Below, in pieces: positions 24,210 through 54,879 of a stretch of 64,000 nt of DNA. How positions within the stretch are numbered: position 1 is the first letter of the stretch; each line of letters opens with the position of its first letter. The position numbers were made by a program, and so were the translations under genes. The notes below the pieces were generated by a model. It did not search any database and was not told where the DNA came from. It saw only the letters and a list, made by a program, of their open reading frames with translations. Source of the stretch: Loxodes magnus (Eukaryota; Ciliophora; Karyorelictea; Loxodida; Loxodidae); NCBI GenBank assembly GCA_946699065.1, contig CAMPDV010000358.1, positions 62,001 through 126,000 of the forward strand. The letters run 5' to 3'.

Positions 24210-26318
24210 ATGTCATTCTAAAAGGACTGCTTGTCTGCTTTGATCTTTGCAGATCTAGATTGAACTTTATAGGAGTACTCAATTACTAAAGAGAAAGCTA
24301 ATTCGCTTATTCATTATTTTAATGAAATTCAGAACCTGGATTTTATTGAAAAAATAAAGAAGAAAGTTTTAAAGTTAAAAGATACTAAGTCCAGCTAATT
24401 TATATCTGAACAAGTAGGAATTCCACTGAGCATAGTGAATTAAATATTTATTGAAGCATAGTAGCAAGGAGCAACATTGAATTACCCTTAAGAAAATTAA
24501 AAAATAATAGGATTCTAAAATAACGCCTCTAAATAATAAAGTAACCCTTGTCTTAAATAATTAGAAGCTTAAAAAATATAGGAAGATATCTTTTAGTAAT
24601 ATGAAGAATTTTTAAGAATTTAAGAAAATAAAGATAACTAAGAAAAGCTTAAAGCAGCCAAATAAAAAAGAAAGAAAATAATAAACTTACCAGAATAAAT
24701 AATCTTATAAAATAACCCTTCATTAGATTAAGCTATATAAAATAAAGATATTTAAATTAATAACTAATTAAATTAAAATCAACTCACCTATTAATACCCT
24801 ATTATTTAAACTTTAGAATCTAATTAAAAGGAAGTATCAAATACACCACCATAAGCAATTTGTTTATAGAATCAACAAATACATCGATTAACTTAAACAG
24901 GACTTGTTGTGGAAAGGCCAAATTTAACAGAGATTTTCATATGCTTATATTGTGAACAGAGTTACACTTAAGAAACTTTATTATCCAAGCATTTTATTAA
25001 CTGCCATGCTAATGAAAAATAAATCTACCTATTTTGTCCTCTATGTTAAGATCTTATCTTTGAAGATACTTCTTCCTATAAATTCCATTTAGACCATCAT
25101 AAAAAATAAGGAGACTCTATAAAATACACCTTGAAGTAAATAAAAATACTATAAATTCTTAGAACTGATAAAGAAACTTTATAGTTTATAGAGCTAAATA
25201 AACAAGTAGATAAACTTAATTATTATATAAAACTTACAGGATAATAAAGAACATCTAAAATATTTGGAAAACACATCAAAGAAGAATATTCCAGTGATGA
25301 ATCTGTTCATTTAATAGAAACTAGAAAGTACTAATGTGAAGAATGTGAGAAAAGTTTTAGTGAAGAAAGTGATTTAATTTTACATTAAAGGAAACATGAA
25401 AATGAATTATAAAATTAACTATAAACTAACAAGAACATAAAAGAATTAGAATTGGAAAATAATAAAATATAGCATGGAACTATTATTTGGACTAAGGGTG
25501 AAAATTTTCTATACAAGTGTAAAGAATGTGAAAGTTACTTTAACAAAAATAATAAGTTATAGTTACATTTCGAGAAGAAGCATCCTAATGCTTAGCTTAA
25601 TGTTCTTAAATGCTCAGTTTGTGAAAATTAATTTGCTAAGAGATAAAATTTACTTAAACATTTGACTAGACATCCATTTAAGCAATAGAAGTAGAAAGAA
25701 ATGCCTTATAAAGAAGAAAAGAAAATTAAGGCAATACCCAATAAAGAAAATGCCAATTAATAGAATTATATAAATAACCAGACATAGTAATAGGATAAAT
25801 TCCAATAAGATAAAAATATGAAATAAGAAGAAAAGAGAGTTTAAGCTTTAGAAATTCCTAAATAAATAGTAATTGAAAAGAGTAATTAGTAAGACAGCAA
25901 AAAATAAGAAAAAGATAGTGAAGATTTGAATTAAGATGAGAAAAAAATAAGAAATATTTTGTAGCAATAAGTTTAAAAATAATAAAATGATAATATAAAA
26001 ATGAGAAAAGAACCTTAAGAAGTAAGTTTTAGATAAAATGTCTTTAACAAACCTTAGGAAACAAATTAATAAGAACAAGGTTTTAGAAAGTTTAGAAAAA
26101 TAATTGACTTAACTACGCCCTAATAAAATATGCCAAGTTAAGTTTAATAAATTCAAAAGAATAACTTTCGAATTTTAAATAATAGACAAAATCTTCCAGT
26201 ATAAAATACTAGATAGATGATATAGCAAAACTTAATGAACTAATTCTAAAATACCTAATTCGTTGCAAGATAACAGTATTAGAATATGTATTATCCTTAC
26301 TACATGCCTTATCACTAA
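24210..26318 (+). CDS. Five-zinc-finger protein, paralog 1
   Basis: Reading TAA/TAG as Gln, ATG at 24210 opens a frame whose similarity to two paralogs in the window (start 33572 minus, start 46587 plus) extends to a TAA at 26316-26318 (702 codons). The next in-frame TGA is at 26778-26780. Residues 1-85 form a conserved helical block (ISEQVGIPLSIVNQIF) that resembles a helix-turn-helix. Fingers begin near residues 245 (CLYC), 276 (CPLC), 376 (CEEC), 437 (CKEC) and 468 (CSVC); the last three fit C-x2-C-x12-H-x3/4-H. The C-terminal third is Gln/Lys-rich and ends in QNMYYPYYMPYH. A nucleic-acid-binding role is inferred from the fingers. Oddity: codon 18 is TGA (24261-24263), in the conserved block, and no ATG lies between it and residue 490. 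The leader is A-rich (TTTTAAAATG). Confidence 0.75.
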
Positions 26319-27421
26319 CATCTTACCTTTAATATAATTTTTCAACTTAAAAAGAATTATTTAAATTTAAATTAATTAATAGATATAATTATTAATAATA
26401 CTAAAATTAACTTACATTTAAACTAACTTAGTTATACCTAAATTCCTTAATAAAAATAATTATTGTTTCTTCATATGATTAAGAAATTTTATTTATTTTT
26501 AATGTTTATTTAGCTATTGCTATATCTGTATAAAATAATCTAATTTATTATTAAATTAATAAGGGATTCTTTTAGTATTTTATAAAGATATATAAATTTT
26601 GGAGTTTTTAAATTGATTTTTGTAAGCATTTATTTTCCCTTTTAAGGAAACATTAATATTTATTTTTCGAAAGATGTTTATTTTATTACTAAAATAAATA
26701 ATTATTAAATCTCATTTTATACAAATTTTTAAAAATTGAGGGTAAAAATATAAAAAGAAGCTTGTATTTATAAAAATTGAAATCATATTATACAAAGATT
26801 TGAATTAATAAGTGAGTTAAATAGATAAAAATAATGATCACTAAATAAATATTTTAAAGTATCGTTTACCTTGTTATCTTAAAAACATTTAAAGCATAAT
26901 TTAAATCTCATTAAGTTATGTTAAATAATTATAGCCTTATTTTCAATTAGTTTAATTAGCTAAATGATTTCATTACTATCTATATAAAAGATTAAATATT
27001 CTATCTTTAATATATAAGCTTATTATATTAGTTGGCATAGATAAAATGATCAAAAGAAGGAGGAAGTTCCAATTAAAGTTTTGGAAACTTGTGTATATGA
27101 AGTATGAACTAATTTGATTTTTCTATTTAAAATTAGTTGATTTTGCATTATAAATAAAGCTATATATAATTTTATGATATTTTATATAAAAAGACTAACT
27201 ATAAAATGAAATAAGTAATATAATTAGAGAACTAATATAACTATACTAATAGTTAAAAGAAATAAGCAAGTATTTATTAATAAAAATCATAATAAAGAAA
27301 GAAACAAAGAAAGAAAGTTTGAATTAAGATGAAGATAACATAGAAAATAAACCCTAAAAATATTAAAAAGTGAGTGAATAAATGGATGATCGAAAAGAAG
27401 TTATATCAAAAGATAGAATAA
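26319..27421. other. Post-ORF A+T-rich region
   Basis: If TAA at 26316 is Gln, the frame of the preceding zinc-finger gene continues to TGA at 26778-26780, adding 154 codons of hydrophobic low-complexity sequence with no counterpart in the paralogs. That extension looks like translated 3' flank. Nothing else is seen up to repeat R1. Confidence 0.4.
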
Positions 27422-27731
27422 TTAAAAAGATAATGGGAGCTGAGATTGACCTTCTGGACTAAACTTTCTGATTTTATGGCTAGGAACAAGTTCCTTTCCT
27501 GTCGTTGAGAAAGTCCCCGACCAGAGTCATTTTATGAAGAGAACACTGTATTCGAGATTATCCGCTCTTGGTTGAGGCATGAAGCCTGGCTGTTCATAGC
27601 AATGGAGCTTCATGGCAGCTGTTTCTGGAACACAACAGGATATTCCTTTATTCCTTAAATTGAGAGCGTCGGGTCGTCTAACTAGAAAGAAGTTTTTGGT
27701 CCCCAAAACTCTTTTAGTTAAAATTAATTAA
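27422..27731 (+). repeat. G+C-rich dispersed repeat R1, copy 2
   Basis: Second copy of the repeat at 5310-5618, same orientation, roughly 80% alike by eye with small indels. Shared blocks include TTTATGGCTAGGAACAA and CGAGATTATCCGCTCTTGG (one base differs in copy 1). This copy is outside the inverted-repeat element, so R1 moves or spreads independently of it. At the position where copy 1 has TGG (in TFWFYG) this copy has TGA. Confidence 0.65.
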
Positions 27732-30700
27732 TTGAAAGATAGAAGCTCATAAGAAGAAGTGGAAATAAACTTTGAAGAAAATTAGAGTAAAAACATTAAA
27801 TAAATCTTAGTAATCGATTTAATGTCCGAATACTAACAAGTTGGGAGTAATAATTAATAAATGAATCCTTAAATTTTTAAAAGAATAGTTTGTAGTGATT
27901 TAGAGAAGTTAACTTTTTGAATAATTTAAAGAAAAAAGACATAAACTAAAAATAAAGATTTTCAAACAAGCTATAAAACAATAATTTTTATGAAAATGTA
28001 TAGATGCAAGATGCTCCCTGTTTTATAAATAATATATACCTAATTATAATTGATAAATTCTTTAAAATTATTTTTATTTCATCAATTAAGTTTAAAAATT
28101 AAAAAAAATCTAAAGAATAAAAGCAAAGCTTTAGATATTAAGAAAAATTAAAAAAAAACTTCATAATTGAATTATAAGCTTTCTAGCCAACTAAATTAAT
28201 AAATTACCACTATTATTAAATTAGCTTATTGTATTTAATAAACCCTAGCTTTTTAGTGTAAAACAACGTAAGAATTGCTTGCCTTGACAAAATAGTTATA
28301 ATAAGAAAGTTTATAAATTATTCAGATAGAAAAAATTCAAAAAATTTTAAATTTAGAATAAAATTTATTTATTTCACTATTAAATTTTGCTTGTTATATA
28401 AATAAAGAAGTGAGATGATATATAACAACTATATATATAGAATTTTAAAATATAAGCTATAATAAATAAACTGAGATAGGATTTTAAAACAAATAATTTA
28501 ATAGATATCATTTTGCTAAATTAGTTCCAAAACTTAGATAGTAAAATTTCATAATTATAATAGAAAAACTTAATAACTAATTAAGCTAATAGAATTTCCT
28601 ATTTTTCAATTTCTCATCTAATTAAATATTAAATAAGTTATAAAATTTCTAAAAATTTATAATCAAGACATATTTATAATATAAGTTATGTTCTTAAGAT
28701 TTATAATTATTAAGTTTATCTTATAATTTTAGATTTATTTAGTAAATAACTTTTATCTTCTAATAATTTTATAAATTTAATACAAGTCATATTTATTTAA
28801 TTTTTTAGTTAGATTTCACATGAAGTTTATTTTAAATTTTTTTTGAAAATTTTATAATCAAAAACTTATCTATATAACTCTAATAAAGTTAATTTAAATA
28901 TTAATAATATTTATTTAGATGGAATTCAGTTCTAAGAAAGACACTTAAACAATTACAAGTTAAAAATGAAAATATCTATTATATTAAGTAAGGTATTCCT
29001 TTATATGATTTATTTTATATGAATTATTATTTATTTAAAGAATTAAAGCATTTTATTTAATTCATTTTTATAACAAAATTTCATTCAAATCTTTATTACT
29101 CTTCTTTTTGTATGAAAATTCCCTAATAAATTTATTATTAGATTGTACCTTATAATTATAAAATGTTTTAATTCTTATTATCCTTCTTTAAAATATTTTC
29201 TTTTTAATTTAAACATTTGTCTGGCTTATAAAATCCAAAAAAATCATTTTAAGAATTAATTATTTAAAATGTATATAAATTATTGCTAAATTTAAAAAAT
29301 TATCATAAGCTTATTTATAAAACAAGCTTATATTTATTCGGTAATTCATTTTTTAATCTTTTTTTTTTTAATTTATTAATTTAAATTAAGTTAAAAAATA
29401 AAAGACTATTCATTGCTTAAGATATAAAAAGAAATCAAATAATTTAAGATATGATAATTTTTTATTTATTACCAAAATGAATTTTTCTAAGATAAAGCTT
29501 CTACTTTTTTTTAAATTAAAGAAGATGAAAAATTGTATATTTTGAAAGATTGCTTAAAAATTAAATTTACTTTAGACTCCTAGCAATTTTTAAATAATAA
29601 GAAAAATATTTATTTTAAATTCTTTTTATTTAATTAACTTTTTTATTTTACCTTAAATATTTCTTTCATCTACCTTTATATAATTTTTATTTCTCTAGCA
29701 TTATTTCTGCAATTTACAATTTTCTTTCTAAATTGGCAGCGAATAATAAATCTTTGATAGATTATAAATGTAATATTGATTGAAAATTGAAGACTATTTT
29801 ATATCTACGAAGGAATTTTTATTTTTTTATCATTTAAAATTAGATAGAAATAAGCTTCATATTTCATAATTTTTCTTTAGTATATCAATTTGTAAAAATA
29901 AATTTATATCCTTTAGCTATTAATTTCTTATAACTATTTTTTTTTCTTTCGAAATATTATTCTTTATAGAATACAAAGCTTACTGTTTTAATAAATATTC
30001 TAGAGTTTACTATAAAATCAAATAAACTTTATTTGACTATATAAGTGTAAAAAGTTGATTATTTGCATTTTTCTTATTAAGCATGAACTTTTAGCTGAAT
30101 AAGTTTAAAAATCTAAAAATTTATTTTAATAAGTTATATAAAAAGCAAGTTTGTCCATAAATAAACTATTTAACTTATTTTTTTTATATTTCCTTTATTT
30201 TTAAATATTGTCACACTAAGTCTTCAATTCAAAAAATCATTAAACTTATCTAGCACTTAAATAATAAAATATTTAGTTAAATTTAAATTTATGCTGCCTT
30301 ACGCGCTTTTTTATAAATTTAGTAATCTAATTTACCTTGTTCTCATCATTTAAATATCTAATATAATTTTTCTCTTTTACTCATTTATAATCAACTATCT
30401 TGATTTAATAATGAATAAATATAATATTCTAAATTTAAAGAATAAATATAAGAGATTAAATAGGAATATACTTTAATTATTAATAAAAAACTAAAACTAG
30501 AGTTAATATATCTTTTCATAAATAACTACTAAAAGCGCACTTTCTTGTTTTAAGTCTTTTTGATTATTTTTATTTTTATAATCTTCTACTTTTATTCATC
30601 TTTGATTCAATTTTTAATTTTAAAAGGATTTATAAAATTCAATCAGCTTTGACTGTATAAATGATTATAGAAATATTATTTTATTTATATATTAGGTTAA

Positions 30701-31052
30701 TATATTTTTGGAATACTAGCACTTGCTAAATTAACAGAGAATTATTAAGATAAGTCGTGTTAACTATTTTAAATTTTTGAAATTGAATAGTTTTATATAA
30801 GTATTAATTTAATAAATATAATAATAATTAAGCAAGGATTATCTTATAAATGGAAAAAAATCTTTATTCATAGAGATTCCTGAGAGAGAGATTTATTATT
30901 TGCTCCTATTTCTTTTTCGTTTCTTTAGATTAGCGAAGCTATTTTTTGATATAAATAAACCGATATAATAAAATTTAGCAAATATTATAAATTTTAGTTA
31001 TAGCTTTATCTTTTTAGAAACTTAGTATTTATTTGTTACTAGCATGCTAGAA
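27732..31052. other. A+T-rich stretch without supportable gene
   Basis: About 3.3 kb with no domain-bearing frame, repeat or composition change that I can support. It ends at the TGA (31053-31055) that closes the downstream extension of the minus-strand zinc-finger gene. Confidence 0.5.
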
Positions 31053-31373
31053 TCAGCTAGTAATTTAGAAATTTGCTTAAATTTTACATATATCAAATAA
31101 GATAAATTTTAGAGAATATAGTTAAATTCTTTAATATTTAAAGTATAATAAGCATAGAATTCTCTATTGTCTTCTGAAATTAATTTTTAAATGCAATGAT
31201 AAAATTACTTTTGTGCTTCTAAATTTATTTTTTATTTAACTAAAAAAGAACAAAAATATTATAAAAATGATACTACATAATTTATAGTAATAAATGATCT
31301 TCTCTTTATAAAGAAGCAATAAATATTTTATTATTATTTTATCAGATTTTATCAATTAAAATAAATTTTTTGT

Positions 31374-33572
31374 TTAATGATATTGAGACATGTTATAAGG
31401 ATAGTACATATTCTAATACTAAAGTCTTGCATTGTATTGATTCAATTGATACTGATTCACTAAACTTGGATACAGGCTTGGATGAAAACTTGGCTATTAA
31501 CTTCCTTAAATCATTTATCTATTATTTTATGTTGGGAAATAATATCTATTATTTAAATGTTCAAAGCTTAACTATTTTGTGTAGTTAAATGGTTTTGGTC
31601 TATTTTAATCTGTTTTAGTTTAATCAACTATTTTTCTAAACTTCTAAAATCCTATTTCTTATTATTTTGTTTCTTGTGGTATATTTTATCTTGAATTTAC
31701 TTCTTTTGCTTCCACTATAGCATATTTATCTAATATTTACTCTTTTTGAATTTCATGTGGAGCATGTATTTCTATTTTTTATTCATCCTAATTTAAATCT
31801 TCACTATCTTTGTCCTAGTTACTGTTACCTTACTTCATGCTTTTATTTTTTTCTTCTTTTATTTACTATTGAATATTAGCTATGATATTTTCTTCTTTTA
31901 TTTTTGATTTTATTATATCATAAATTCTACTTTTTTAATCTTTGATATCAATTTTTATTTCATCTTTTAGTTAATTAAGTTCTTGCTAAATATCATTTTC
32001 TATCTTATTTTTTTAACTGATTAAACTTTCTTGTTAATCTGTTATTTCTAGCTTCTTCCATTCTTTAAGTGAATGTCCAGTTAAATGTTTAAGTAAATTT
32101 TTTCTCGCATTAAATTAACCTTAACATACCGAGCATTTTATAGTGTTAAATTAGGCATTAGGATGGTTCCTGTCGAAATGTTTTTATAACTTGAAGTTTG
32201 TTTTGAATGAACTTTCGCATTCTTTACATTTATAAGAAATATTATCTTCCTTATTGTAAATAATGATACCGTATTTTAATGTAGTATTTTCTCTTTCTAA
32301 CTCTTTATATGTTTTGCTAGTTTTAAGCTTATAATTTAAATTTTTCTTTTCGTGCATTTTTTGATGTAAAATTAATTATTCTTCCTCTAGAAAATTTTTC
32401 TCACATTCAGCACACTAATGTTTTCGTGTCTTTATTAAAAGATTAGATTCATCACTTGAAATATTTTCAATCTTACCTTTGGCAATTGTATCTATTTCCT
32501 GTTTACCTTAAAGTTTTTCTTACTTTTCTACTTTCCTCACGTTATTTTCTTTTTTGTTTAGTTAAGTATTTTTTTTGGTTTAAGAGAACTAAAATGTTTT
32601 TATTTCTTATAAAGTATATTTTATATTTTCTCCTTGTTTTTGATGATGCTCCAAATGAGAGTTGTATAAAGAATTATTTTAAAAAGTGAGATTCTAACAT
32701 AAGGGACAGAAAAGATCAATTAATTTTTCTTAAGCGTGATGATCTATGAAATGCTTTGAGAGAACGATTCCTTCATTATAGATTTGATCACAATATAAGC
32801 ATGCAAATAATTATTTATCTTCAGACTCTCTAAAAACGATGCCACTTTTAGTTAAGCGAATGATTTCTTTATTTTATAATTAGCTTTAGCTCTATTAAGT
32901 TTCTTAGAGTTCTATTTAATTTTATTCGAAACTTTAAATCTTAGAATATAAATCAACTTCTTTATTTTAAGTTTAGTTTATACTTTAAATACTTATTTAT
33001 TATTTTTGAGGATCTTATTTAGAAATAACATTAAGCTTTATTTAATCTGGTAAGGTTATTATTTTCTTCTTGATTTCTTCTCTTGGTCTTTTTTTAATAC
33101 TATAAGTACTTTCTTATTTTGCTTCGACTTTTAAAAACTCTTCGTAGCACTAAAGAATATCTTCCTAGATTCTTTAAACCTCTTTTTATTTTTCATTTTT
33201 AGTTTATTATCGTTATTAATTAGGATTTTAATCATTTAATTGCATATAATTATTTTTTATAGGTTCTAATATTTTATTATTCTTTTATTTACTATTTTAT
33301 ACCTCTTATTACTTAAGTGATCTTGATTCAGAAATTATTTAGTCAACTATACTACGAGGAAGTCCTACTTTTTCAGATATTTAATACCTAGATTATGATT
33401 CTTAAAGCTTAAAAATTTTTCTTTTTATTTAAACAATAAAATCCAGGTTTTGAAGTATTTTTAAATCGCTAACAAGTATTTTTGCTTACTCCCTAGTAAT
33501 ATCAAACTCACTTAACACAAAATCTAAGTTAGTGAATACTAAAGCTGATAAATAATCCTTAGTCGCTGACAT
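31374..33572 (-). CDS. Five-zinc-finger protein, paralog 3 (no internal TGA)
   Basis: ATG at 33570-33572 after TTGTAAAAA; 732 codons to a TAA at 31374-31376, or 839 codons to the first TGA at 31053-31055. The N-terminal block (MSATKDYLSALVFTNLDFVL, then ISEKVGLPRSIVDQII) aligns with the paralogs at 24210 and 46587, and codon 18 is TTT (Phe) where both others have TGA. Fingers begin near residues 258 (CLYC), 289 (CPLC), 387 (CAEC), 449 (CKEC) and 480 (CSVC), matching paralog 1 one for one. The C-terminus ends QNMYYPYNMSQYH, then the TAA; what follows is unlike the paralogs. It is the best reference copy of the family. The opposite strand carries shadow frames at 31370-31588 and 32456-32689. 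A nuclear DNA- or RNA-binding role is inferred only. Confidence 0.8.
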
Positions 33573-36222
33573 TTTTTACAATTATTTAAACAGAATTTAA
33601 GTTAAATAAATTAGATTTAAATTACTTATAACTAAGCTATTTCATCCTTACTTTAATACAACTAATTAAAGGCTATAATTTTGACTTATATTATACGTTT
33701 TTGTCTTGCGAGTAAATTAAAAGTCTAGATTGTTTGATAATATTATTTTACGCCTTCAATTTATTAAGAACAGCTTATTTTAATTTGGAATAAATTAAAA
33801 GAAATTATTTTAATCAAGTAAGTATAAAATACAGATTTGAAGTTCAACCTATCTATCTAAATGATTTAAGCGCTATAATCATATCAAATTTTAGATTAGA
33901 TAATGAAATGAAAAATGATTGTATAAATTATTTTAAGGTTCTCTAAGACTAAAAAGTATTATTTACGTTTTATCTAAAATACATTACTATTATTCAGCTC
34001 TAAATTTTATTTTTACTATTTAACCTAATATATTAGTATATTATAACTTTTTACTAAATATGATCTAAAATTTTTTTTATAGACATTAAAATTGCTTTAG
34101 ATGTTCTTAAAAATAAGGCTTGTATTTAAAATATTTAACTTTTCATTCATTTAAAATATTAAAACAAACTATAAATAATTTATTAAAAGCCTAGTAAAAA
34201 TTATATAAGGCTTGTTAAAGTTTTAAAATTTAGAGGTATAGCTTTTAATAATTTTTATTATATTTTATTATAAATATCAAATATAATTGTATACTACACC
34301 TATTTAAATATCTATCTTATATTATTTTTTGTTATTATATTATGGAAATATATATACATCATCTATTTATGATCTTGTATTTTAAATTATATACATCTAT
34401 TATACTAATAAAAAAGAATTTTTAGTTTTATAGTATCATTATATAATTTTAGAAATGATTCTATAAAATAAAGTTTATACTTATAATTATCTTAAGGATT
34501 GCTTTTTCAATCTATTATTAATAGCTAAATATAATAATGCTTTATAAGAATTTTTATTTATTTTAGTGATTTTATTATTTTTATTAAAGTGATTTGAGAA
34601 GCAAGTAATAGCTATAATTATCATATTAAGAAAATACATTATGTATGAAGGTTCTGAAAGATTAATAGAATAAAAGGCATAAAAAAAGCAACTTAATTAA
34701 GATGAAACTTAAATTCTTTTACCATGCAAATTGTATATAACTTTATTTACTCTTAATGAAATGTATAATATTTATTTATTTGAATTATATGGTATATATC
34801 ATAAATGTAATTTATAACTATTAAAAGCTTTAATAGAGTTGAATAAAATAAATTAAAATATACAATGCTTTATTTGTAAAACTAAATTTGAAAGGTAAAT
34901 CTTCCTATAATAGAGATTTAGATATTTTAGGTTTTAGTAATTAAATTAAAAACAAATTTTAAGGCATTAAATGGTATACTTTGGAAGTTTTATAGATGCG
35001 AGATTTATTCAGAGTTAAAAATGCGTTGCTTAGTAATAAGAGTTATAATTTAAAATTTATATTAAATGCTTAAATTATTCTTTCTTTAATAATTTTCTTT
35101 AACTCTCGATAATCATTCAGCTTCTAGACAAAATACCTCTTCTGGTATATTTTTATGAATAATGTAGAACTGAATTAATAGATAAATAACTTAATTAAAA
35201 TAAGAAATTGATAATTATTTATAGATTTGACTCTTTTTTCTTAGGTAATAGTTCTTTTTATTGAGAAGAGAAAAATATAAAATTTTATACTTTCTTGATC
35301 TCTATTTTGTTACAAAACAGACTAAAATCATGTTAATAACTTACTTGGCTACTAACTGAACTTTAAAATTTTACACTACACAGAAAGTAACTTAATAAAT
35401 TGAAAGAGATAATTAATATATTATATTAATTAATTATAGAATTTTGACCTTTGAGTCTTATTATTAAATTTTTCTTCTTTTTATATCTCATTTTTATTGA
35501 GTTATATAGACAAGTTTTCAAATAATTAATAGATGTAAAATAATTATAATTAAAAAATATCTATACAATGAGGGATAACAATCCACAATATTTAACTTTA
35601 ACTCTTTTATTAATAAAAATTATTAAATGGATCTTTCTCTAGTTTATCTATTAAAGAAGTTTATTGTTCTTTATGCATAAGAAGCAATACCTTTATTTCT
35701 TAATGATATGAATAATTTAAATTTATTAATTGGCACTTGATAATTAATATAGTTATATAGCAATTTATTTTTTATATTTTGAGAATTAAGAAGATTAAAA
35801 TTTAAAAATAGAGGATATTTTCTATAATTATATTGTTTGATTCCTGGAAAAAGTTATTTGTTCAATTTCTCCCCATATAAAAAGAGTATATAAGTTTTAG
35901 AAATTTTAAATTCTTCTATATTTGCTCTAAATTTTAAAACCTATTATATAAACTTGCTGTCATTAAAAAAGTATCATTATTAATTTAATTTCGCAAAAAA
36001 AACATAGTGACTCTTTAGCCTCCTTTGTGAATGATTACTCCACATAGATCATAATTTTTATTATCATTTTGATTTCTATATAAAATACTTACTATGCTAG
36101 TTATGGCTCTAACTTTATTACAACAAGTTATTCTACTTTAATAGCTCTTCAGGTAATTTAGATGAATTTTTCAAAATTTATAAAAATAATTTTTGCAGAT
36201 TTAAATAATTTTTACTTCTTCA
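33573..36222. other. A+T-rich region, possible continuation of the 36.7-kb minus frame
   Basis: No clear gene. If TGA is sense, the minus-strand frame from 36747 continues through about 35500 with fairly complex sequence (for example NYQVPINKFKLFISLRNKGI near 35700), so part of this stretch may be coding. Under the standard ciliate code it is split into short frames. 33573-35400 shows nothing. Confidence 0.3.
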
Positions 36223-36747
36223 TCATATATTAATTTCATGAAATGCAAGTGCAAGAATCTTTTCAATCTTCTAAAAATTCCTTAGATATCCCATGAGGAT
36301 TTTTTTGCTCCCTTTCAGGTTAAAATCTATAAAGACATGAAATTTAATTTTTTTTGCAGTTAAAGCATTTAAAATTTAATTGAAATTATCCACCTAAAAA
36401 TTTATGAATTTAACTTTATCTATTTTCTTTCCAAAGTCTGCAATGTTTTCAGCAAATATTTCTCTATTTATCATATAGTCATATATAGGAATTTCTTCAT
36501 TAATCAATTGCTTAAAGAACTATTTTATGAATTCATAGCAATCTTTGCTTAAGAAATTAATTTTTATTTATCACTTAATCATGAATTCCTTCAATAGTCA
36601 GAAAATCATTTTCTTAATATTCATTCATCTCTTATTATATATGTCTCAAGTAACCAATGAAGGTAATATTATTTTTTCACTTTTTATATTTAATAAATAT
36701 TTGCTTAATAAAGGTTTTCAATCATATTAGGAAATGAAAATAAGCAT
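36223..36747 (-). CDS. Hypothetical frame with several in-frame TGAs
   Basis: The frame from an ATG at 36745-36747 has 174 codons to the TGA at 36223-36225, but contains five earlier TGAs, all before about 36550. The part after about 36550 is continuous for about 105 codons and protein-like (FIKQFFKQLINEEIP, DYMINREIFAENIADFGKK, KIKFHVFIDFNLKGSKKIL). If TGA is read as Trp, the upstream part becomes plausible (VT-W-DIYNKR-W-MNIKKMIF-W-LLKEF). If TGA is stop, only the distal piece could be coding. It lies directly downstream of the decayed zinc-finger relative on the same strand, in another frame. Family not recognised. Confidence 0.3.
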
Positions 36748-37560: not shown

Positions 37561-38171
37561 AAATTAACAAAGCGCTACCTGAAGAAAATCAGCCAACTCA
37601 AAATTTTAAGCGTTTTTCATCTACTAAGCGCCTTTTAAGAAAAAAAGGTTAATAAAAGGTAAATAACTCCATAAAGTTAATGAGCAACACTGTCTAAAGT
37701 TTTATTTAGGACCATATAGAAGAATTACAAATTTTTTGCAAATAAAAAGGAATTTTTCCATTTTATATGCTCTTTCTAAGTAAATTAAAAAAAAAGGTTT
37801 AAATAGCATACTAAAGGAACGAAAATCAATAAAATTATTGAACTTAAGACAACCAAAGCCAAATGCTTTCCTTCCTAACATTTACGTAGAAATAATGCTT
37901 CATAAAGGAATAAAAGTTTTTGCTATTTTAAGTTTTATTTTAGGTAAATTATATGATTAAAGAAGTAAATGTAACGCAATATTCAAACATTTGGAATGAA
38001 AAAAACATATCACATTATAGAAACTATCTGAAAATCTACTTTTGCGATAGACTTGATTTTAGAATTTTTTGCTTAAAACCCAAAAATACTATTATTGAAG
38101 AAATTATTCAAATAATAGCTAGAAATTATGAAAGGGACAAAACACTAGATAAATCTGATTCCCTATATTGA
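37552..38171 (+). CDS. Broken or intron-containing hypothetical gene
   Basis: Three successive plus-strand frames look like one protein: 37552 to a TGA near 37838 (KALPEENQPTQNFKRFSSTK), then an overlapping frame (LRQPKPNAFLPNIYVEIML) to about 38000, then the frame with ATG 37953 and TGA 38169-38171 (YLKIYFCDRLDFRIFCLKPK). Composition is richer in Pro, Arg and Cys than the flanks. Possible splice signals exist (GTAAAT near 37944 and TTATAG near 38020) but I cannot prove them. The gene diverges from the decayed zinc-finger relative on the other strand. No family recognised. Confidence 0.35.
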
Positions 38172-38641
38172 ATCAACATCAAAGAAGAAAATATTTAAAA
38201 ATTTTTTATTTTTTATTTTTTAAAGGTATGAATTAAGATAAACTCCTAGAGCCAAGAATTAAAATTATTTTATTATTAAACATAAAATTTTTTGGTATCT
38301 TTTGCATTTTATTTATTCTTAAATTTCTCTTTTAATCCTTCTTACTTGACTCTTAATCAAATTTTCCTCTTAATTACTTGAATTTTTATTTTTTCGTTTT
38401 AACTATTATTTTAGTTCAAGTTTCTCCACAGTTTTAATATAATAATATTTAAAAGTTCTTGTTTATGATTTTTTCGATGGAAAAAGTCTAAAAGTAAAGA
38501 CATCAAGTTTGCTTAAATAAGAATAATTCCATAAATGTAAGTGAGATATTGACTCCTAAATTTCTATCCATTTTATGGATATTCTATTTAAAGATATCTA
38601 TATTAGCAATTTTTTTGCTGAATAATATCTTATTTTTGTGT

Positions 38642-39640
38642 TCAGTCATTCAAGTCATTAGAAACACCGTTTCTCCACGTTAAAAATTTATTATCTTCTA
38701 AATTTTTAATTTCTGAGCAGTTTGAAAAAATCCTATTTATAAGTCTTCTCTCTATTAAGTAGTTCATTATATAAAATATTAAAGACATCAAATTTTGTTT
38801 GTAATCTATCATTTCCCAATTTATCCACTTAAACTAGCCCTGAAGTTTTTATAAAAGAAAAGCTTTTTATTTTATTTATCAGAAAATCATGATCTTTAAA
38901 AATTCGTTTCTCATTTTAATTTTATATTGCATTTTATGCTAAAAATACAGCATTGAAATTTAAATTAGCCTTTCAATGTTATTATTAATATGCTTTCTAA
39001 GTTTTTCTTATAATTTATCCAATTCACCTAAAAGGCTTTAAAAATTGAATTGAGCAGCTCCTCTATTAATTTTTTGACCATTTTTAGTTTTGATTCCTTT
39101 TGCTTTGGTTTTATAAAATTGTTTTTATTCACTCGTTTGCTATTTTATTAATTCCAACGGTTTAAGTTTCCATGCTATATAAATATACATATATTTCAAA
39201 AACATCATCTGAATAACTTACAAAAATGCCGACAGCAACCTTACTTTTATAAAAGTTATATAATGATGGTTTTTTTAATTTAATTTTTTTAATGTGACTA
39301 GGAATAGCATTTTCATATTAATGGTCATCCTTTATATATTTTAGTTTCAATCTCATATTTTTAAGCAGATTCCTATGTAAATTTATATCGACCTTCATAC
39401 CTTTTGACTCATCTCATAAGTTTTTTATTTTTTAATTAAATATTCCTTTAACTAAAAATAGCGTTTAGACATCATAAATACTCGGTAAAATATTTTTAAA
39501 TTTAGCTTTTTAATTATTCTAATAGATAAAAAATTATTATTTATTTTGAAAATTTTGTTATTCTTTCTTTTCATATATCATTTTAAAATATCTCCAGCTT
39601 AAAAATTTTCCAATTTTTAATGTTTTATATTTTTTTTTAT
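38642..39640 (-). pseudogene. Hypothetical protein gene with in-frame TGAs and frameshifts
   Basis: A minus-strand frame from about 39640 gives protein-like sequence for some 230 codons (FKNILPSIYDVQTLFLVKGI, KVDINLHRNLLKNMRLKLKY, KVAVGIFVSYSDDVFEIYV) but has TGAs near 39570, 39380 and 39130. A second frame near 39080-38890 (GAAQFNFQSLLGELDKLQEK) and a third near 38860-38642 (VDKLGNDRLQTKFDVFNILY), ending at TGA 38642-38644, appear to continue it. Either a frameshifted pseudogene or an intron-containing gene in which TGA is sense. Function unknown. Confidence 0.35.
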
Positions 39641-40189
39641 ATATTTTTTAATTTCTTCTTAATATTTAAATTTTGTAGTATGATTTTTGAATTAATTTAA
39701 ATAATATTTCTTAACTATAAAATAAACATTCATTTAAGCAATAAATTATATTTATTATATTTTTATATAGAATTGTATTTTTTACATTATCAAAATTTAT
39801 AATAAATCTTAAATTATTTTAATAGTTTGTTCTATGAAGATTTCATGTTCATTTATAAATAATATTTTTAAAAATTATGGATTGCTATAATAGAAAAGGA
39901 ATATTTTCAAAAATAGTTGCCATCTAATAATTTAAAAGATAGCAAAAAATCTATTTTGGTAAACATCTCTATATCATTATATTTTAACTGATAATAAAGA
40001 AATGGCTCTTAAGAAATAATCGAATAAAATCTAACAGGACTCGACTAATAAAACTCTCTAATCGAAATATACTCCTATAAGAGGAAAATAAAAATTGTAA
40101 AAATCACTTCTAGATTTGATTTAACGATTAGATTCTCTAAATTTAACTATGCAGCAACTATAAAATGAAAATAAATGACTAAAAATGGA

Positions 40190-40810
40190 AATCAGCACTA
40201 AAACATCCAATTCTTAACTTATCTAATAACTGGAAAAAACGGAGTTAAAACTTAAAGATACTAACAAAAAAATTTTTTTGAATAACTTATTTCTCCTCAT
40301 AATGATTCTATGGTAGTGGAATAGCAGTATTCCAAAACTTTTCTAATCGGAAAAATATTAAAAACGGAAAAGTTTTTTTAAATGTTAAAAATTAAACATA
40401 TCTCCAAAAATGTACATCAGGATGCTTCTTTTGTTAAAGAAATGGACATATATGCAAAAACTGCTGGTACTTTTCGAAAAAACAGAAATAAGCAAGTAAA
40501 AAGTTTAGAAATGAAATGTCTAAATTATACTGTTTCCCAGAAAATATACTTTAAAAGAAAAAGGCATACAGTGGAGATTAATTACTATTGATATAGTAAG
40601 CACTCAAAAAAGAAGAACGAGACAAATGTTTGGACAAGACTGAAGCAGGATTCCTACTTTCAAGAAGTGATAAATTAGCTTGAGTCGATACGTAATAGAA
40701 GAATGCGAGTCTATTATTCAAGAGAAGAATGGAGTGATCTCATGAACATTTGAGAAAATTTTTTAATTGAATCCGTGACTAACCCAACAAAGGAAAAAGT
40801 CTCACAAATA
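40190..40810 (+). mobile_element. Non-LTR retrotransposon ORF1-like fragment, copy A
   Basis: Contains a CCHC knuckle at 40423-40464 (CFFCQRNGHICKNC, fitting C-x2-C-x4-H-x4-C), followed by the block KLYCFPENILQKKK that recurs in the other ORF1 copies of the window, and a stop TGA at 40681-40683. The part before the knuckle is in other frames (one starting MEISTKTSNSQLIQQLEKTE near 40189), so the copy is frameshifted. CCHC knuckles in retrotransposon ORF1/Gag proteins bind nucleic acid. No reverse transcriptase follows within the next 2.7 kb, so it is a fragment. Confidence 0.55.
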
Positions 40811-43550
40811 GATTATTATTACTATTATTATATTATATTTATGTAATGCATTTATAGATAAAATTAGATTGTATGATATATTTTTGTCAGATTAGCAAGA
40901 AAAAATAAAAAAAGAAGAATAAAAAGTCTATTAAAAACGAGAAAAATTACAATAAAGTAGTTCTTCATAGCATTTTAAATAATATTAAACTATTAAAGAG
41001 AGAATTCTTTAGTATAATTGATAGATAAAGACTATTTATTAGCTTATAAAGACTTTTAAGAGTTTTAAATAAGATTGTCTCATTAATTAGTATAATAGAT
41101 ATAGCTGTAATACAAAAATAATTTGAATTTTATCTTTTTTATCTTAAATAGATCTTTAAAATAATTTGCTAATTTAAATAATTTTTCTCAACTAAAAAAA
41201 TGTTTAAAGAATAATAAATAAATAAAAATTAGAACTTTAATTTTTAATTTTTATAATCAACTATTAAATAAAATTATTAAAAAACAATTATTTATTTATT
41301 TTAAAATAATTAAATCTTTAATTTTAAAATTTAAATGCATTTATTTAGGTAAATTAAATATAGTTACTATGCTTAACTAAATAAAAATTAGTTTTATAAA
41401 CAATTTTAAAGATAATTTATATAAAGAAAACTAGTTTTTTCATTTTAAATACATTTTTGAAGAAATATTAATTAAAAAATAAGAGAGATCATAATATTAA
41501 TAATTAGTAAAATATATTTAAATTTACTAGTGAAAAATATAATATATTTTTCATAGATTCTTAAAGTTAGGAAAATAAAATTAACTACTTAAAATAATTA
41601 AGATTCATAATTATATGATAACTATTCATTTCTTTTATGAATCTTTTATTATGTTTTTTAGATTCTTTTACATTAGGTAATATAACTATTATGATTATTT
41701 TACTTTAAATTTTAGTTATAATAATGTATTTTCATAATTTATTCTTCACTTTAGATTTTATCTCTTATTTTTTAGATTTTCCTTAAATTTTGGTATGCTA
41801 AATGTTTTTTAATTTAAGAGACTGAAGTTTAATGTACTTTTAATAAATATTCTATATAAAATATTAATCTTTCAATTATTTTATAAAATATATTTAGTTA
41901 TTGTTCATTCCATTTAAATAAGAATTTTTTAGATTTTTATCAATTTAGCAATTTTTAACTTTTATATATTAATAAATTAAAAATCCTTTGAAAAAGATGA
42001 ATAAAACTAAGTGATTGCTATTAATTGATATATAATACTTTTTAAAGCTAGAAATAAATTATAATAATTTGTATGAAGAAACTTATAAATAATAAATTAA
42101 TTTAAATTAATAAAAATAAAAGCTTATTATTTAATTAATATCAATCATATTTATTTACCTTTGTCTTCCTATTTGCTTAAATTCTAAGTTAAATTTTAAC
42201 TTATTTATTTTTATTTCCTTCTTCATGAAAACTTAAACATGCTTTAAATTTTCCTTAAAGTAAAAGTGTAGAATTACAAATTTTAAAGAATGTTTAAAGA
42301 TAAATTATAAGAAAAAATTAAAAATTAAAGACATAAAATACTAAAAATGGATGTAAAGTTAGATAAATATAAAATAAATAAATAATTAGGAAAGTTATTT
42401 CTAAAGTAACTTCTATCTATTCTAGTTATAAACATTCCTTTAATAAAATTAAATTTAAGAGTGATCATAAATAAATGTATTAGTTATAACTACTTAATTA
42501 ATGATTATAGAATCTTCAATTAAACCACAAAATGATAGTATAAATGAATCATAGTTCTAAATGACTAAATTCTACTAGTAAATGAAAAGAATATTTTAAT
42601 CTTTGATTAAGTTTCTAATTATTATATTTAATCTAAAAAATTAAATTTTAAACGTTTTATAAATAGTAAAGACAAACATTTTGCTCAAGTACAAAAATGC
42701 TTCTATTTTTAGGTTTGAAGTTGGATAAATACAAATATTGCTAAGAAGGCATCTTATATTTATCTTTTATGATTATTTAAGCAAGAAAGAAGAATAAAAT
42801 TCTATCTAAAAATAATCTTATATTATTTATAATTAACTAAGCAAAATAAGCAAAATAAGCAATGGTATATTAATTATTAAGTTGAGTTAGGTAATAATTA
42901 ATAAAGAGAAAATTCTTTAATTAAACAGCCTATTAAAAATATTAAAAGAAATCTAATTTTTATTACAAAAAGAATAAATTTTATAAGATTTATTAATTAT
43001 CTAAGTTATTATAACTTCAAAGAATTATTCTCTATTTATTAATTAAAACCTTCAAGACAAAAGGATTCTAAAATTAACTGAGAATTAATTAGCTTATAAT
43101 TTAAAAAATAAGAAAAAATGATAATTCATTTTCTGAAAAAGATATAAGAATAGCCACCACAATAAGGTAAGTATTTTAGAGCTAGAAAATTTTGTGTTGT
43201 GAATTAATAATTATATCACGAAAATTATCTTATTTTGAAAATTTGCTAACAATTTCAAGAGAAAACTCACTTAAAAATATTAATTTAAAGTTTTATAAAT
43301 GATATTACAATATCTTTAATCTAATTATTAAGACTTACTCACTTTTTAAAACTAAACAATTGTAATTTTATTATTAAGGTATTAGCTTAACTATAACCTT
43401 AAGGCTATTTATTGAAAAGCACTATGACTGATTAATTTCTAATTTTATTAATTTTAAAAATTTTAATTAAATTCAATAGATTAATGAAAATTAATAGCTT
43501 TAAAGGAAACAAATTAAAGGATTAATTATTTTTATTTTTTATTTACTTTG
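40811..43550. other. A+T-rich stretch without supportable gene
   Basis: About 2.7 kb of low-complexity A+T-rich DNA after the retrotransposon fragment. No domain, repeat or G+C island was recognised. Confidence 0.5.
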
Positions 43551-43931
43551 TTACAATAAACCTGCTTTAGTGCTGAGTAAATATAAGATAGGATTATGCT
43601 TTTTTAGCTTAGTAATATTCTGATATAAGATAACTAACTTAATCTTAATTATATTAATTAGTTTTAGAATATCTTTTATATCATAATTCCTCAAAAAATC
43701 ACGATGATATTTATTTGCAAAATTGACTGTTTTACAAAGATTATTAATAGTTCTTATGAATGAAAAAAAAGATCTTATATGATTGATTGAATAAAATTCA
43801 TATGAAAATCTAAGCAAATTTTTAAAAATGCTTGATATAAATAATTTGATTATTATCATTATTATATCAAATGATCTACTAGAAATAATGGAAATTAACG
43901 AATAAAGACTATATATAAATAGAAAAAGCAA
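43551..43931 (-). CDS. 126-codon ORF lacking TAA/TAG (doubtful)
   Basis: This minus-strand frame is open for 126 codons without TAA, TAG or TGA, although TAA/TAG are very common in A+T-rich DNA here. The N-terminal third is hydrophobic (Ile, Phe, Leu, Ser), the rest basic (FSFIRTINNLCKTVNFANKY). No good ATG starts it; the first codon is TTG. With TAA as Gln it continues to a TGA near 43476. It may be a real exon avoiding Gln or simply T-rich sequence. No family recognised. Confidence 0.2.
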   Translation of the reverse strand: MLFLFIYSLYSLISIISSRSFDIIMIIIKLFISSIFKNLLRFSYEFYSINHIRSFFSFIRTINNLCKTVNFANKYHRDFLRNYDIKDILKLINIIKIKLVILYQNITKLKKHNPILYLLSTKAGLL

Positions 43932-44317
43932 AAATGAAAAAGTTAAAATTAAAATTAAAGAAATTTATAAAAAACATAATAGTTAATTAATAAATTAACT
44001 TTAAATCATAATCTATTTTGCGATAAAACAATTAAAAAATCTAAATAATTATAAATATTAGTTAATTAATAAAATTTGATTAAACAAAGTTAAAATTATA
44101 GTATAAAATAAATAATAATATTTGATAAGTTTAAAAATTTAAATATAAAAGTAGATGATATTCATTTATTTATTTTTTTAAATGTTTCTTTATTTTAACT
44201 AAAGGTTATAATTATAAGTAAATCAACCTGCTTATTTAAATTAAAAAATAGAATCTAAACTTATTTTTCTATTAACTGTAAAAACTTTGCTAATTAATTA
44301 TTAAATTAAAGAGCTTG

Positions 44318-44535
44318 AGAACAGCTTAGCTCTTGCCATACTACATTTTCTGAAAGACTTCTAGAATGATTTAACTGGAATATTCTGCTAATCAGTTTCT
44401 GCAAGCAGGAACCACCAAGTTTATTGAATAAATACTCCAATACATAGAATTCAAACTCCTACCAAAGTTGGATAATTTCCAGATGTGTTTCCTTCAAGAA
44501 ATTTTGATTCAACCTGGAACTATCTAAGGATTGAA
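44318..44535. other. G+C-richer island of unknown nature
   Basis: About 220 bp with markedly higher G+C than its flanks. No convincing frame on either strand and no match by eye to the other islands. It could be a SINE-like unit, an RNA gene or a retrotransposon remnant. A tRNA cloverleaf could not be folded from it by eye. Confidence 0.3.
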
Positions 44536-45959
44536 GGTATAATCAGACAGTTAAAAATTTTGTTCTTATCTCTCTTTTAATTATAGATAGTAGATATAAA
44601 ATTAAATTTAAATTAGAAGAAAAAGTTATGATAATGGGTTTCCAAGAATGAAATAAAAATTAAAGAAAAATTTATAAATAATCAAGCCAAAGCTTTAAAA
44701 AATAAAAGATAATTAAATATTAGCAAAAATTAAGTCCTTAATCAATATTATATTCAGGATGCTTATAGAATGGAAAAACAGAATAAAAAGCCGAACAAGC
44801 AAGATTAATAAAGAAATAAAGATAGTAATAATATTTATAAGAATACTATAAAGAGAATTTTAAACATTTTTAAAGCTAAAAAGAATAAATAAAAAGCTAA
44901 AAGAACTAAAGAAAATTATTTATATATAAACCTAAATAATTTTTAAAATAAATTGATTTATTTATTAAGATTAACTAAACATAGAGAAAATAAAACCAAA
45001 ATCAGAATGTGGATTTTAATAAATTTTAATTTATAACTGAGAAACTCTGTAACTAAATAGAAAAGAGATTATAATAAACCTTGATAGCAAAAATTTTAAA
45101 TGATAATTAATTTGAAATAATAAAGTGCTATAACTAATTCATTTATTTTACTAAATAATAAATTATTATTAAATAACTAAAATTTTCAAAAAATAAAAAA
45201 CTGGAATAAAAAATAAATTAAGCAAAATAATATAAAGAAAATCGCAATGCAAAACTACATATGAAAAGAAATATCTGAAAAATTAAAATTTTAATTAAAA
45301 ATAATTAAAAATTTATTTAATTATAAAAGTGTTTTATTCTATATGTTTTAATCTTAGATAAGAAAAGAGATGAGAAATTGTATATGTAAAATGACTTAAT
45401 AAAAGTTATCTTTAGTAGAATAAAACATTAAGAAAATGAATAGTTTAATTTAGGTTCTAAAGTTCATTAAAAATAATTTAGAGCTCGAAACAAAAAACGA
45501 TTTTATAAGCCTTATCAAAGCTTTTTAAAAATAAAGTTAAAATTAAAATAATCTTAAATAAAATGCTTAAAGTAAATTTAATGAAATCCACTTTAATTAG
45601 AAAGAATTAAAAAAATAGATAAGAAAATTTAGAATAAAATCTTTTAATTTAATATCCTTTTAATTAGACTCGGAAATGCTAAGCAATGCTAAGTTTTTAT
45701 CATACATTATATAAAATGGAAAGCTTCGTGCAAAAATTGTCATCCAAAAAGGATTAATCTCAACTATATTACAGGTAGTAAACTATACTTAGAGAACTCA
45801 AAAATTTGTAAGAAGAAAATTTTAAGCTTTTAAGACATATATAATAACTCAAAGGAAAAATCTCATACTGATTTCTAACACTTAATAATTAAAAAAAATG
45901 AAAATGAATATTCAACAAATATAAAAATCTAATATTCAGAAATAAATTTCAACTAATTC

Positions 45960-46475
45960 GCAGAGTTGACGGAAAGAATATTTCTTTAAAATATGTTGAT
46001 GAATGATCCTATGTAAGTAGAACTTAAATATCAGCCAGGAGATTATTTATAAGAGAAAAAATAATGTTCATATTTTAGGAGATTTAGCTATACTGTAAGA
46101 TACTGCAGATATTTTAAACAAAAATAATAGCAAGGAAATTAAAAATTATGAAAACCTTTTAGTAATTTATATTGTGCTCCAAATAGAATATTATGCAGAA
46201 AGAAAAATTTTAGAAGGAGTGAATTTATGAGAAACATAATATTTTCATATTATAGAAAGGAAGAATAATATGAAGCAGTAAAATTTACTGAAGCGAAATT
46301 TCAATAATAAAAAAGATTAAATCAGCCTGAATAGATATTTCTTTAAAGAAAGCTATCGAGACAAAGATTACAAATTCAGGTTTGACGAAGTAATCGAATT
46401 TTAATATAGTGATGAAACTATTAAAGGTGGAATTACTATAATTGATTATATTATTATAAAGTATGAATTTTAAAT
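45960..46475 (+). pseudogene. Broken hypothetical gene upstream of zinc-finger paralog 2
   Basis: The frame from an ATG near 45991 (MILCKQNLNISQEIIYKRKN, then VHILGDLAILQDTADIL) runs about 70 codons to a TGA near 46229, then continues in the same frame with protein-like sequence (SYRDKDYKFRFDEVIEF, IKGGITIIDYIIIKYEF) to a TAA about 110 bp before the ATG of the zinc-finger gene. Just upstream another frame gives QLIRRVDGKNISLKYVDE. Other frames across 45585-46400 are also open, so the true frame is not certain. Probably a decaying gene; family unknown. Confidence 0.3.
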
Positions 46476-46586
46476 TAAAATTATAAATAAAATTTGATAT
46501 ATCTATAATTTAGATTAAACGAAAATATAGGTATTCTATTTAAATTAAGTTTATTTATTAAGATTTTTTTTATTAATTCGTAAAAA

Positions 46587-48815
46587 ATGTAAGAGCAAAA
46601 GGAGTGCTTGCCAGCTTTGTTCTTTGTTAATTTGGATTGAACTTTAAAAGAGTTTAATATTACCAAGGAAAAAGCTTAATAACTCATTGATAACTTATAA
46701 AGTATTCAAAGAATGGATTTTGTTGAAAAAGTAAAAAAGAAAATTCTTAGACTAAAAGAAAAGTTTACAACAAATGAAATATCACAAAAAGTAGGACTTC
46801 CTCTTAATGTTGTTGATTATGTTCTTTCTAAATCCCAGTTAAGTTAATAATAAAATCCCTAATAAAGCAATCAAGAAACTATTTAACTAAAAGAACTTAA
46901 ATAAAATACTTTCACTCAGTAAAATAATTAAAATCTAAACTTGCAGAAAATAGATAAAAGAGAAGAACTAAACAATTTATAAGAGTAAAATATCTTATTA
47001 AATGAGGATAAAAAAGATAAATAATTGGTGGATTCAAAAATATAAAAAGAAATACTCTAGTAGTAAGAAGAATTTCTTAAAGAACAAGGAAAATAATAAA
47101 ATACACAAAACACTAAAAAAAGATAAAGAAAAGAAGAAAAGAAGAAAATTTTAATACTTCCATAATAATTAAATCTAAATAAAATTATCATACAAAGTTA
47201 AAGTTTAAAACAAAATTAAAACAAATAATCAATAAACTAATAAAAGTATAGCTAAAGTATTGATAAAAAAGAAATAGAGAATAAGGAACTTAATAAAATA
47301 GAAAATAAAAATGTTAAGGATATAATAGCTAAAGAATAAGGAGATATTCGATTAGTTTAGAGTGGAATTGTCATATAAGATTATAACTAAAATAAAGCTT
47401 ATTTATGCTTATTTTGCGATAAAAAATTTAGAGAATAATCCGAGCTCTCATAACATTTGATCGATTGGCATACTCAAGAAAAACTGATGAAATTATTTTG
47501 TCCCTTATGTATTAATCTTATATTTGAAAATATAGAATCTTATAATATCCATTTAAATAGGCATTAGTAACAAGGAGAAATTATAAAATATACTATATAA
47601 TAGATAAAAGAGTTCTAATTCCTTTAAACTAAAAGAACCTATTAATAGTTTATTGAAATAGAATAATAGCCAGCAAAAGTTAAATCTTATACAAATTGTT
47701 AAGGAAATCTATTAGCTGATAAACCTTTTGGAAAGCATATAAATGAAGAATATTTTAGAGATTAATCTATTCTCTATATAGACACTAAAAAATAGAAACT
47801 AGTAGAAAGTGAAAATATATTATCTAAAGAATAAGAATAAGAATAAGAAGAAGAATAAGAATAAGAATAAGAAGAAGAATAAGAAGAAGAAGAAACTATT
47901 TTAAATTTAAATGAACAGAGGAAGAAAAGAAAAAATAGAACTGTCAAAAGTTTTAAAGAGTTATAAAAAGAGAATACTACAATATAATATGGAACTATCC
48001 TTTATGATAGAGATGATAACGTTTTATATCAATGTAAAGAATGCTAAGATCTATTTTCAAGAAACATAAGCTTATAAAAACACTTTTTAGAGAGCCATCC
48101 TGGAGCTTAACTCAATGAGATTATATGTTAGATTTGTGAAAGCTCTTTTGGAAAGAGAAAGAAATTTCTCAAGCATCTATTAAAGCATACAGTTAAAAAA
48201 TAAAAGAATAAATTAATTAAATAACAAGTAGAAGAAGATAAAGAAGCAGATAATAGTTAAAGTCTATAAATATAAAGTTAGCTATTTAATCAAAAAAAAT
48301 AAAGACTTAATCAAAAATAAGAATATAAAAAATTAAGTTAAGGAATAGATAATTTCATAAATAATAATAAATTAGAGGAAAACTTAGAATTTAATAAGTA
48401 TGAAGAAATTTATAAAAAGACAAAAAATAATGAAGATATTAATTAAAATGAGAACAAATTAAAAAATCTAATTTCTGAGTAAATTTAAAAGACTTAAAAT
48501 GATAATGTTTTAAAGAAGAAAGAAGTGAAAGATTTAGCTTTGAAATAAAACTATTTTGTTTAAAAAATAAATTAAAGGAGATTACGTCAATAGAGGGAAG
48601 CTATTGATTTAAGCAATGTTTAATAAAATATACCAAATTAAGATTAACAAACAAACTAAATGAATTTTCGAACTTTAAATAATAGAAAGCTCATTCCAGT
48701 ATAAAATAATAGATAAGCAATTTTTTCAAACTTAGAAAATTTATCTCAGCAAAAATAATTTAATGGAATACTAAAGTAGCCGAGCATGTATAATCCATAA
48801 ACATCTTATCACTAA
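46587..48815 (+). CDS. Five-zinc-finger protein, paralog 2 (finger 3 lost)
   Basis: ATG at 46587; similarity to paralogs 1 and 3 runs to a TAA at 48813-48815 (742 codons); the next in-frame TGA is at 49164-49166. The N-terminal block (MQEQKECLPALFFVNLD, TGA, TLKEFNITKEKA) shows TGA at codon 18 (46638-46640), the same position as in paralog 1. Fingers begin near residues 274 (CLFC), 305 (CPLC), 483 (CKEC) and 514 (CQIC). The third finger has lost its cysteines (KLVESENIL) and is followed by a Glu/Gln repeat (47828-47892). The C-terminus shares the IPVQNNRQAI and SYH motifs with the paralogs and stops being similar at the TAA. Nucleic-acid binding is inferred. Confidence 0.72.
47828..47892 (+). 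repeat. GAATAA/GAAGAA microsatellite encoding Glu/Gln
   Basis: A run of GAATAA units mixed with GAA inside zinc-finger paralog 2. It is translated as alternating Glu-Gln with Glu runs and sits where finger 3 would continue. Paralogs 1 and 3 lack it, so it expanded after the split. Confidence 0.7.
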
Positions 48816-53950: not shown

Positions 53951-53959
53951 TTTTGCTGT

Positions 53960-54840: not shown

Positions 54841-54879
54841 TATAAAATCTAGAAATATTTAAGTCTCATTATTTATTGG

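Follow-up and report, generated by a model that had tools for sequence, protein, structure and literature searches.

This report concerns a family of C2H2 zinc-finger genes in the karyorelict ciliate Loxodes magnus, three members of which lie in a window of 64,000 nucleotides, the whole stretch that was analysed (assembly GCA_946699065.1, contig CAMPDV010000358.1, here C358, positions 62,001 to 126,000 of the forward strand). In these host genes UGA is very probably read as tryptophan and UAA and UAG (UAR) as glutamine inside the message, and translation would stop near the 3' end at UGA or, for this family and a minority of genes outside it, at UAA. From the exchange of TGA with TGG at codon 18, the exchange of TGA with TAA at the terminal codon, the end of coding constraint there, the avoidance of UAA upstream of it and the existence of tRNA-Trp genes with an anticodon stem of 4 base pairs (bp), we infer how these codons are actually decoded and where the proteins terminate. 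UAA seems to be used, in the same way as UGA, both as a sense codon and, depending on context, as a second stop; this is new relative to the published code, in which UGA is stated to be the only stop (PMC11441545). The features concerned, in window positions, are the following.

24210..26318, plus strand: zinc-finger paralog 1, 702 codons and a proposed UAA stop; frame intact with UAR as Gln and UGA as Trp
24261..24263, plus strand: codon 18 of paralog 1, TGA read as Trp; TGG at this codon in 21 of 51 copies
26316..26318, plus strand: proposed UAA stop of paralog 1, 154 codons before the next in-frame TGA; this column is TGA in copies L009 and L010
46587..48815, plus strand: zinc-finger paralog 2, 742 codons and a proposed UAA stop
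46638..46640, plus strand: codon 18 of paralog 2, TGA read as Trp
48813..48815, plus strand: proposed UAA stop of paralog 2, 117 codons before the next in-frame TGA
31374..33572, minus strand: zinc-finger paralog 3 (L038 among the family copies), ATG at 33572
33519..33521, minus strand: codon 18 of paralog 3, TTT (Phe)
31374..31376, minus strand: proposed UAA stop of paralog 3, 107 codons before the next in-frame TGA

In the mechanism proposed, codon 18 would be an ordinary, well-kept tryptophan codon in a small helical N-terminal domain. Near the 3' end of the mRNA the release factor would win the competition and UGA would then end the protein. UAA would likewise act as a stop near the 3' end in the zinc-finger family and a few other genes, and UGA and UAA stops could hence substitute for one another between close paralogs.

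The zinc-finger family

The three window paralogs are recognised as C2H2 fingers by Pfam (zf-C2H2_4, 34.5, 34.6 and 31.5 bits for a cut-off of 27). The family is far larger than these three, a point overlooked, together with the alternation of TGA and TAA at the C-terminal codon, by the preliminary description of the window, which a model had made from the letters alone. A search of the whole genome (705,730,643 bases in 7,843 contigs, the window being part of C358) with paralog 1 gave at least 67 matches (61 of 552 candidates scored), paralog 2 not being among these. Sixty stretches were fetched, a few matches sharing a stretch, and with the two plus-strand window genes they make 62 entries, paralog 3 having entered as L038.

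The codon alignment comprises the 51 copies (49 distinct in sequence) in which the ATG and the C-terminal motif are both present. UAR and CAA/CAG interchange throughout it, which bears out UAA and UAG as glutamine codons. Eleven rows were excluded (L029, L055-L060 and L064-L067). At codon 18, L064 and L065 carry TGA and L029 carries Cys; the remaining eight are without such an N-terminus in the frame read. At the terminal place L055 and L057-L060 have TGA, L056 has TAG and L029 has TAA in a different frame; L064-L067 carry no end motif.

UGA as a tryptophan codon

The preliminary description had drawn attention to an in-frame TGA at codon 18 of paralogs 1 and 2, opposite TTT in paralog 3. Both TGA codons are in frame with the ATGs at 24210 and 46587, TTT was located at the aligned codon on the minus strand, and the N-terminal block is common to all three genes. 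The claim that some 700 codons follow free of further TGA also holds, the next in-frame TGA occurring only at 26778 (paralog 1) and 49164 (paralog 2). Paralog 1 does lack an early downstream ATG, its next one being codon 498 and not, as had been given, 490; in paralog 2 an ATG occurs at codon 43.

The shared TGA is not a chance match. The survey of further paralogs that had been proposed gives TGA in 28 of the 51 full-length copies, TGG in 21, TGC in one (L024) and TTT in one (paralog 3), so that 49 have TGA or TGG at the homologous codon. At least six changes fall on a tree made without that codon, and the closest relatives of paralog 3 (L037, L041, L044 and L045) have TGG. The alternation of TGA and TGG at one codon within the family indicates that UGA is tryptophan, as had been suggested, and the code then invoked for Loxodes, with UAR as glutamine and UGA as tryptophan, is published as NCBI table 27. 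Two other columns are of a similar kind: column 514 has TGA in 18 copies, TGG in three, Tyr in 28 and Arg in two, and in column 54 one subfamily of 15 rows has TGA where most other rows have Leu, which would fit a single change from TTA to TGA, that is, from Leu to Trp.

Between distant copies the 17 codons upstream of codon 18 change in the manner of coding sequence, the ratio of nonsynonymous to synonymous substitution rates (dN/dS) being 0.27 for paralogs 1 and 2 and 0.16 for paralog 2 and L038, from small counts; in two close pairs, again with small counts, it is 1.04 and 2.34. Across 15 representative N-terminal domains, position 18 hardly varies once TGA is translated as Trp. In a structural model of this domain it lies within a helix (residues 16-22), where the predicted local distance difference test (pLDDT) score is 88, for 73 over the whole model. 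A Foldseek search with the model gave a best match of expectation value (E) only 0.36, the top ones being winged-helix or helix-turn-helix domains.

In-frame TGA is not peculiar to this family. A check elsewhere in the genome, also proposed earlier, found it in 101 of 150 scored Ras-domain matches (counted by hand from the table; 721 candidates). It is also present in two NF-YC-like genes, L090 and L091, at what we take to be the position of a conserved tryptophan. That UGA means tryptophan within genes of this genome, as these alignments argue, is already published biology and not new.

Two other explanations of codon 18 bear on this. Selenocysteine might be suggested by the cysteine found there in two related copies (TGC in L024, Cys in L029), yet TGG stands at this codon in 21 of the 51 copies against Cys in just one, and UGA is common within unrelated families; this explanation seems extremely improbable. 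Hardly any more credible is the idea that the genes are pseudogenes, or inherited a defective start, so that the TGA is a genuine premature stop. Some copies are indeed broken or truncated (e.g. L025, L056 and L066), but constraint on either side of codon 18, frames of about 700 codons and repeated exchange of TGA with TGG speak against decay. Given that exchange and that constraint, the alternatives raised at the outset (selenocysteine, readthrough or a defective start) are not needed.

UGA and UAA at the end of the family

The codon closing the conserved C-terminus is TAA in 28 of the 51 copies, including all three window copies, and TGA in 23; CAA and CAG do not occur. The corresponding numbers for 17 representatives less than 93% identical are 11 and 6, and at least four switches between TGA and TAA fall on the tree. 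Paralog 1, with TAA, is sister to L009 and L010, with TGA. Between paralog 1 and L009, dN/dS is 0.31 and dN 0.063, and a frame-breaking indel separates them 24 nucleotides past the terminal TAA of paralog 1. TAG is found at the terminal position in one fragmentary copy only (L056). From the 28 TAA codons it is 8 to 194 codons to the following in-frame TGA.

Thirteen chosen pairs were compared over 240 nucleotides past the terminal codon. Non-triplet indels occur within this distance in 11 of them, TAA- and TGA-ended alike, and substitutions are spread about evenly over the three codon positions; L031/L032, which differ by a single base, and L011/L024, unalignable downstream, are uninformative. 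By these comparisons the sequence past the terminal codon behaves as non-coding. Upstream of the terminal column dN/dS is 0.22-0.64 across the 17 pairs computed, which include TAA-TAA pairs.

Glutamine codons in the last 15 codons of the 17 representatives are TAA in 5 cases, TAG in 24 and CAA or CAG in 18, that is, TAA in 5 of 47, compared with 979 of 1,634 upstream (Fisher p about 5e-12, which overstates the evidence since the rows are related). UAG is not depleted there and, compared with CAA/CAG, leans the opposite way (p 0.08). Genome-wide, UAA and UGA, and not UAG, are depleted before the UGA stops of L. magnus (PMC11441545). Such avoidance would be expected if UAA serves as a stop close to the 3' end.

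Alternatively, a short intron near the 3' end might take out the TAA or bring back a TGA downstream, and published introns of L. magnus are indeed very short (mode 17 bp; PMC11441545). However, the TAA is aligned exactly with the TGA stops of close paralogs, no coding pattern is seen beyond it, and such introns would need to have turned up repeatedly, in several lineages and gene families; we regard this as very unlikely.

Other conserved genes

C-termini were read by eye at 101 loci, made up of 31 histone-fold loci, 52 of the 150 scored Ras matches and 18 of the 96 actin matches. The expected end is followed by TGA in 26 histone-fold, 26 Ras-type and 13 actin-type genes, and by TAA in one histone-fold gene (L077), two Ras-type genes (L121 and L125) and two actin-type genes (L172 and L173). 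No end could be resolved in 3, 24 and 3 (30 of the 101). The 71 resolved ends are thus TGA in 65, TAA in 5 and ambiguous in one (L074, with TAA and then TGA five codons later), several actin and histone loci being near-identical copies. UGA would, on this count, also serve as a stop. The published rule that it is the only one does not seem to describe this genome, with TAA closing 28 of the 51 zinc-finger copies as well as 5 of the 71 resolved genes of other kinds.

Among the five, L077, an H3 variant, is without an in-frame TGA for more than 100 codons past its TAA, and L125 (Ras/Rab) ends in CNC-TAA where its relative L112 ends in CNC-TGA. TAA directly follows the tails of L172 and L173, which we take to be of Arp1-like type. 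L121 (Ras/Rab) is the least secure of the five, its call depending on a CaaX-like CLIF.

Weighing a second stop codon

Under strict table 27, UAA would be only glutamine, and the TAA copies would have lost their stop and acquired chance C-terminal extensions to the next TGA. This is the published code, and a TGA does follow in frame in the 28 TAA copies. It would nevertheless require that long frames kept by purifying selection (the dN/dS range given above, TAA-TAA pairs included) all bear unconserved tails in which frameshift indels separate close copies. Moreover, with a median 3' untranslated region (3'-UTR) of 41 nucleotides (PMC11441545), most TAA copies would reach poly(A) without any stop. 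The avoidance of UAA ahead of the terminal column would be left unexplained, and TAA ends are also seen in the Rab, Arp1-like and H3-variant genes. For these reasons strict table 27 appears unlikely for the genes in question.

Several observations nonetheless count against UAA as a stop, in addition to the published statement that only UGA terminates. Column 371 is the sole other column made up wholly of codons of the TAA/TAG/TGA type (TAA 40, TAG 11); it lies inside the coding part, and UAR must therefore be glutamine there. TAA is the commonest glutamine codon upstream (3,009 of 5,143), so finding it at a given column is nothing unusual as such. It also occurs within the last five codons of two copies, paralog 2 (row W2), where an additional TAA lies five codons upstream of the proposed stop, and L024, at position -2. 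Some genes may have a short C-terminal extension to a later TGA: 14 codons in L037 and the copies close to it, 8 in L054 and 5 in L074. Finally, third-position bias upstream is weak, and in L011/L023 first positions carry the most changes. Small gaps of non-triplet length also occur upstream in some pairs, partly at alignment edges. The contrast across the terminal column thus rests mainly on indel load.

tRNA-Trp and release factor genes

In the tRNA-Trp(CCA) genes of two arrays positions 27 and 43 are mismatched, which leaves an anticodon stem of 4 bp, judged by eye, and a copy on C110 has a 5-bp stem; this covers the few of 127 pattern matches that were fetched. Loxodes is listed among the genera possessing tRNA-Trp with a 4-bp stem (PMC13092985). 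A generic tRNA-Trp sequence used as query gave no match in the genome, where the pattern search did.

The tRNA-Trp(CCA) genes are tandemly arrayed at C67:482323-491201 and C148:155464-168939, with periods of about 187 and 241 bp, and tRNA-Phe genes, likewise multicopy, form an array on C22. Genome-wide the patterns match 127 times for tRNA-Trp and 237 times for the tRNA-Phe control, partly arrayed too (2 and 22 for the reversed-pattern controls). Amplification of tRNA-Trp as a special adaptation is rejected, the tRNA-Phe control being even more numerous.

The search of the genome for the release factor eRF1 gave three matches, the best in a gene on C2 which resembles Pelota. An eRF1-like gene, L145 (C196:19500-21700, with a second copy near C196:54613), reads RAQNIKS and FLCENTF at what are presumably the motifs TASNIKS and YLCDNKF. 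These altered motifs are suggestive only.

Gene copies and the rest of the window

Gene copies, often near-identical, are spaced widely on the same contigs, for example zinc-finger genes on C878 (five copies about 17.5 kilobases (kb) apart) and C131, actin genes on C266 (16.8 and 28.7 kb apart), C711, C707 and C1162. They look as if single genes had been amplified in very long repeat units. L049 and L053 are identical for 600 nucleotides before the stop and dissimilar directly after it, which suggests gene conversion or duplication confined to the coding region. The related odd copies L024 (C878) and L029 (C358), with Cys at codon 18, share an unusual sequence a few codons past the terminal column, different from that of their relatives and seemingly higher in G and C; it may be a mobile insertion or a duplicated segment.

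The G+C content of paralogs 1 and 2 is 24% and 22%, unlike the 33.5% of L. magnus coding sequence (PMC11441545). Among the best matches to solved structures, those of the protein P0001 to zinc fingers are confined to its finger region. In the parts of the window scanned with Pfam, much of it lying outside them, the three zinc-finger genes are the sole matches above cut-off: seven other frames gave no match, and six-frame scans of 52500-56500 and 59100-63999 gave nothing except one sub-threshold match. No tRNA was found in positions 1-64000, and phage records gave no match.

Comparison with known codes

If this interpretation is correct, the published code for Loxodes magnus is incomplete, and gene models that end only at UGA would make some proteins too long, the excess being 107 to 154 codons in the three window genes provided that no intron intervenes. 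Paralog 1 (UAA) and L009 (UGA) would offer a natural test pair for how the ribosome discriminates sense UAA from stop UAA. It is likely that Loxodes has no codon that is purely a stop, that at least two (UGA and UAA) mean both an amino acid and stop, and that UAA is still a competing terminator, able to take over as stop in whole branches of a family. The code would then lie between tables 27 and 28, with position relative to the mRNA end, rather than the codon, defining termination.

In the open-licence literature searched (listings and passages), no report of UAA stops in Loxodes was found. Seah, Singh and Swart (Peer Community Journal, 2022) reportedly proposed, tentatively, that UAA may replace UGA as the stop in a small fraction of karyorelict transcripts. 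That work is reportedly based on transcripts, whereas here paralogs of one genome exchange UGA and UAA at a homologous stop.

Karyorelict table 27 (Parduczia and Loxodes; PMC11441545) agrees with the present genes in UAR as glutamine, in UGA as tryptophan inside the message and stop near its 3' end, and in the scarcity of UGA and UAA, and not of UAG, before stops. In Parduczia UGA was at the stop in all transcripts inspected (PMC4967479). The difference from the UGA-only stop described for L. magnus (PMC11441545) is UAA at the stop position of 28 of 51 family copies and of five other conserved genes. The code of Condylostoma magnum (table 28; PMC4967479) is alike in that UAA is both glutamine and, by context near the transcript end, stop. 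All three codons are stops there, whereas here UAG is seen at the stop only in the fragmentary L056. Blastocrithidia (PMC12153298, PMC13092985) also reads UGA with a tRNA-Trp(CCA) of 4-bp stem and uses UAA both as sense codon and as stop, with UAA rare before genuine stops. It differs in that UAR is glutamate and UAA the sole stop; in Loxodes UAR would be glutamine and UGA the main stop.

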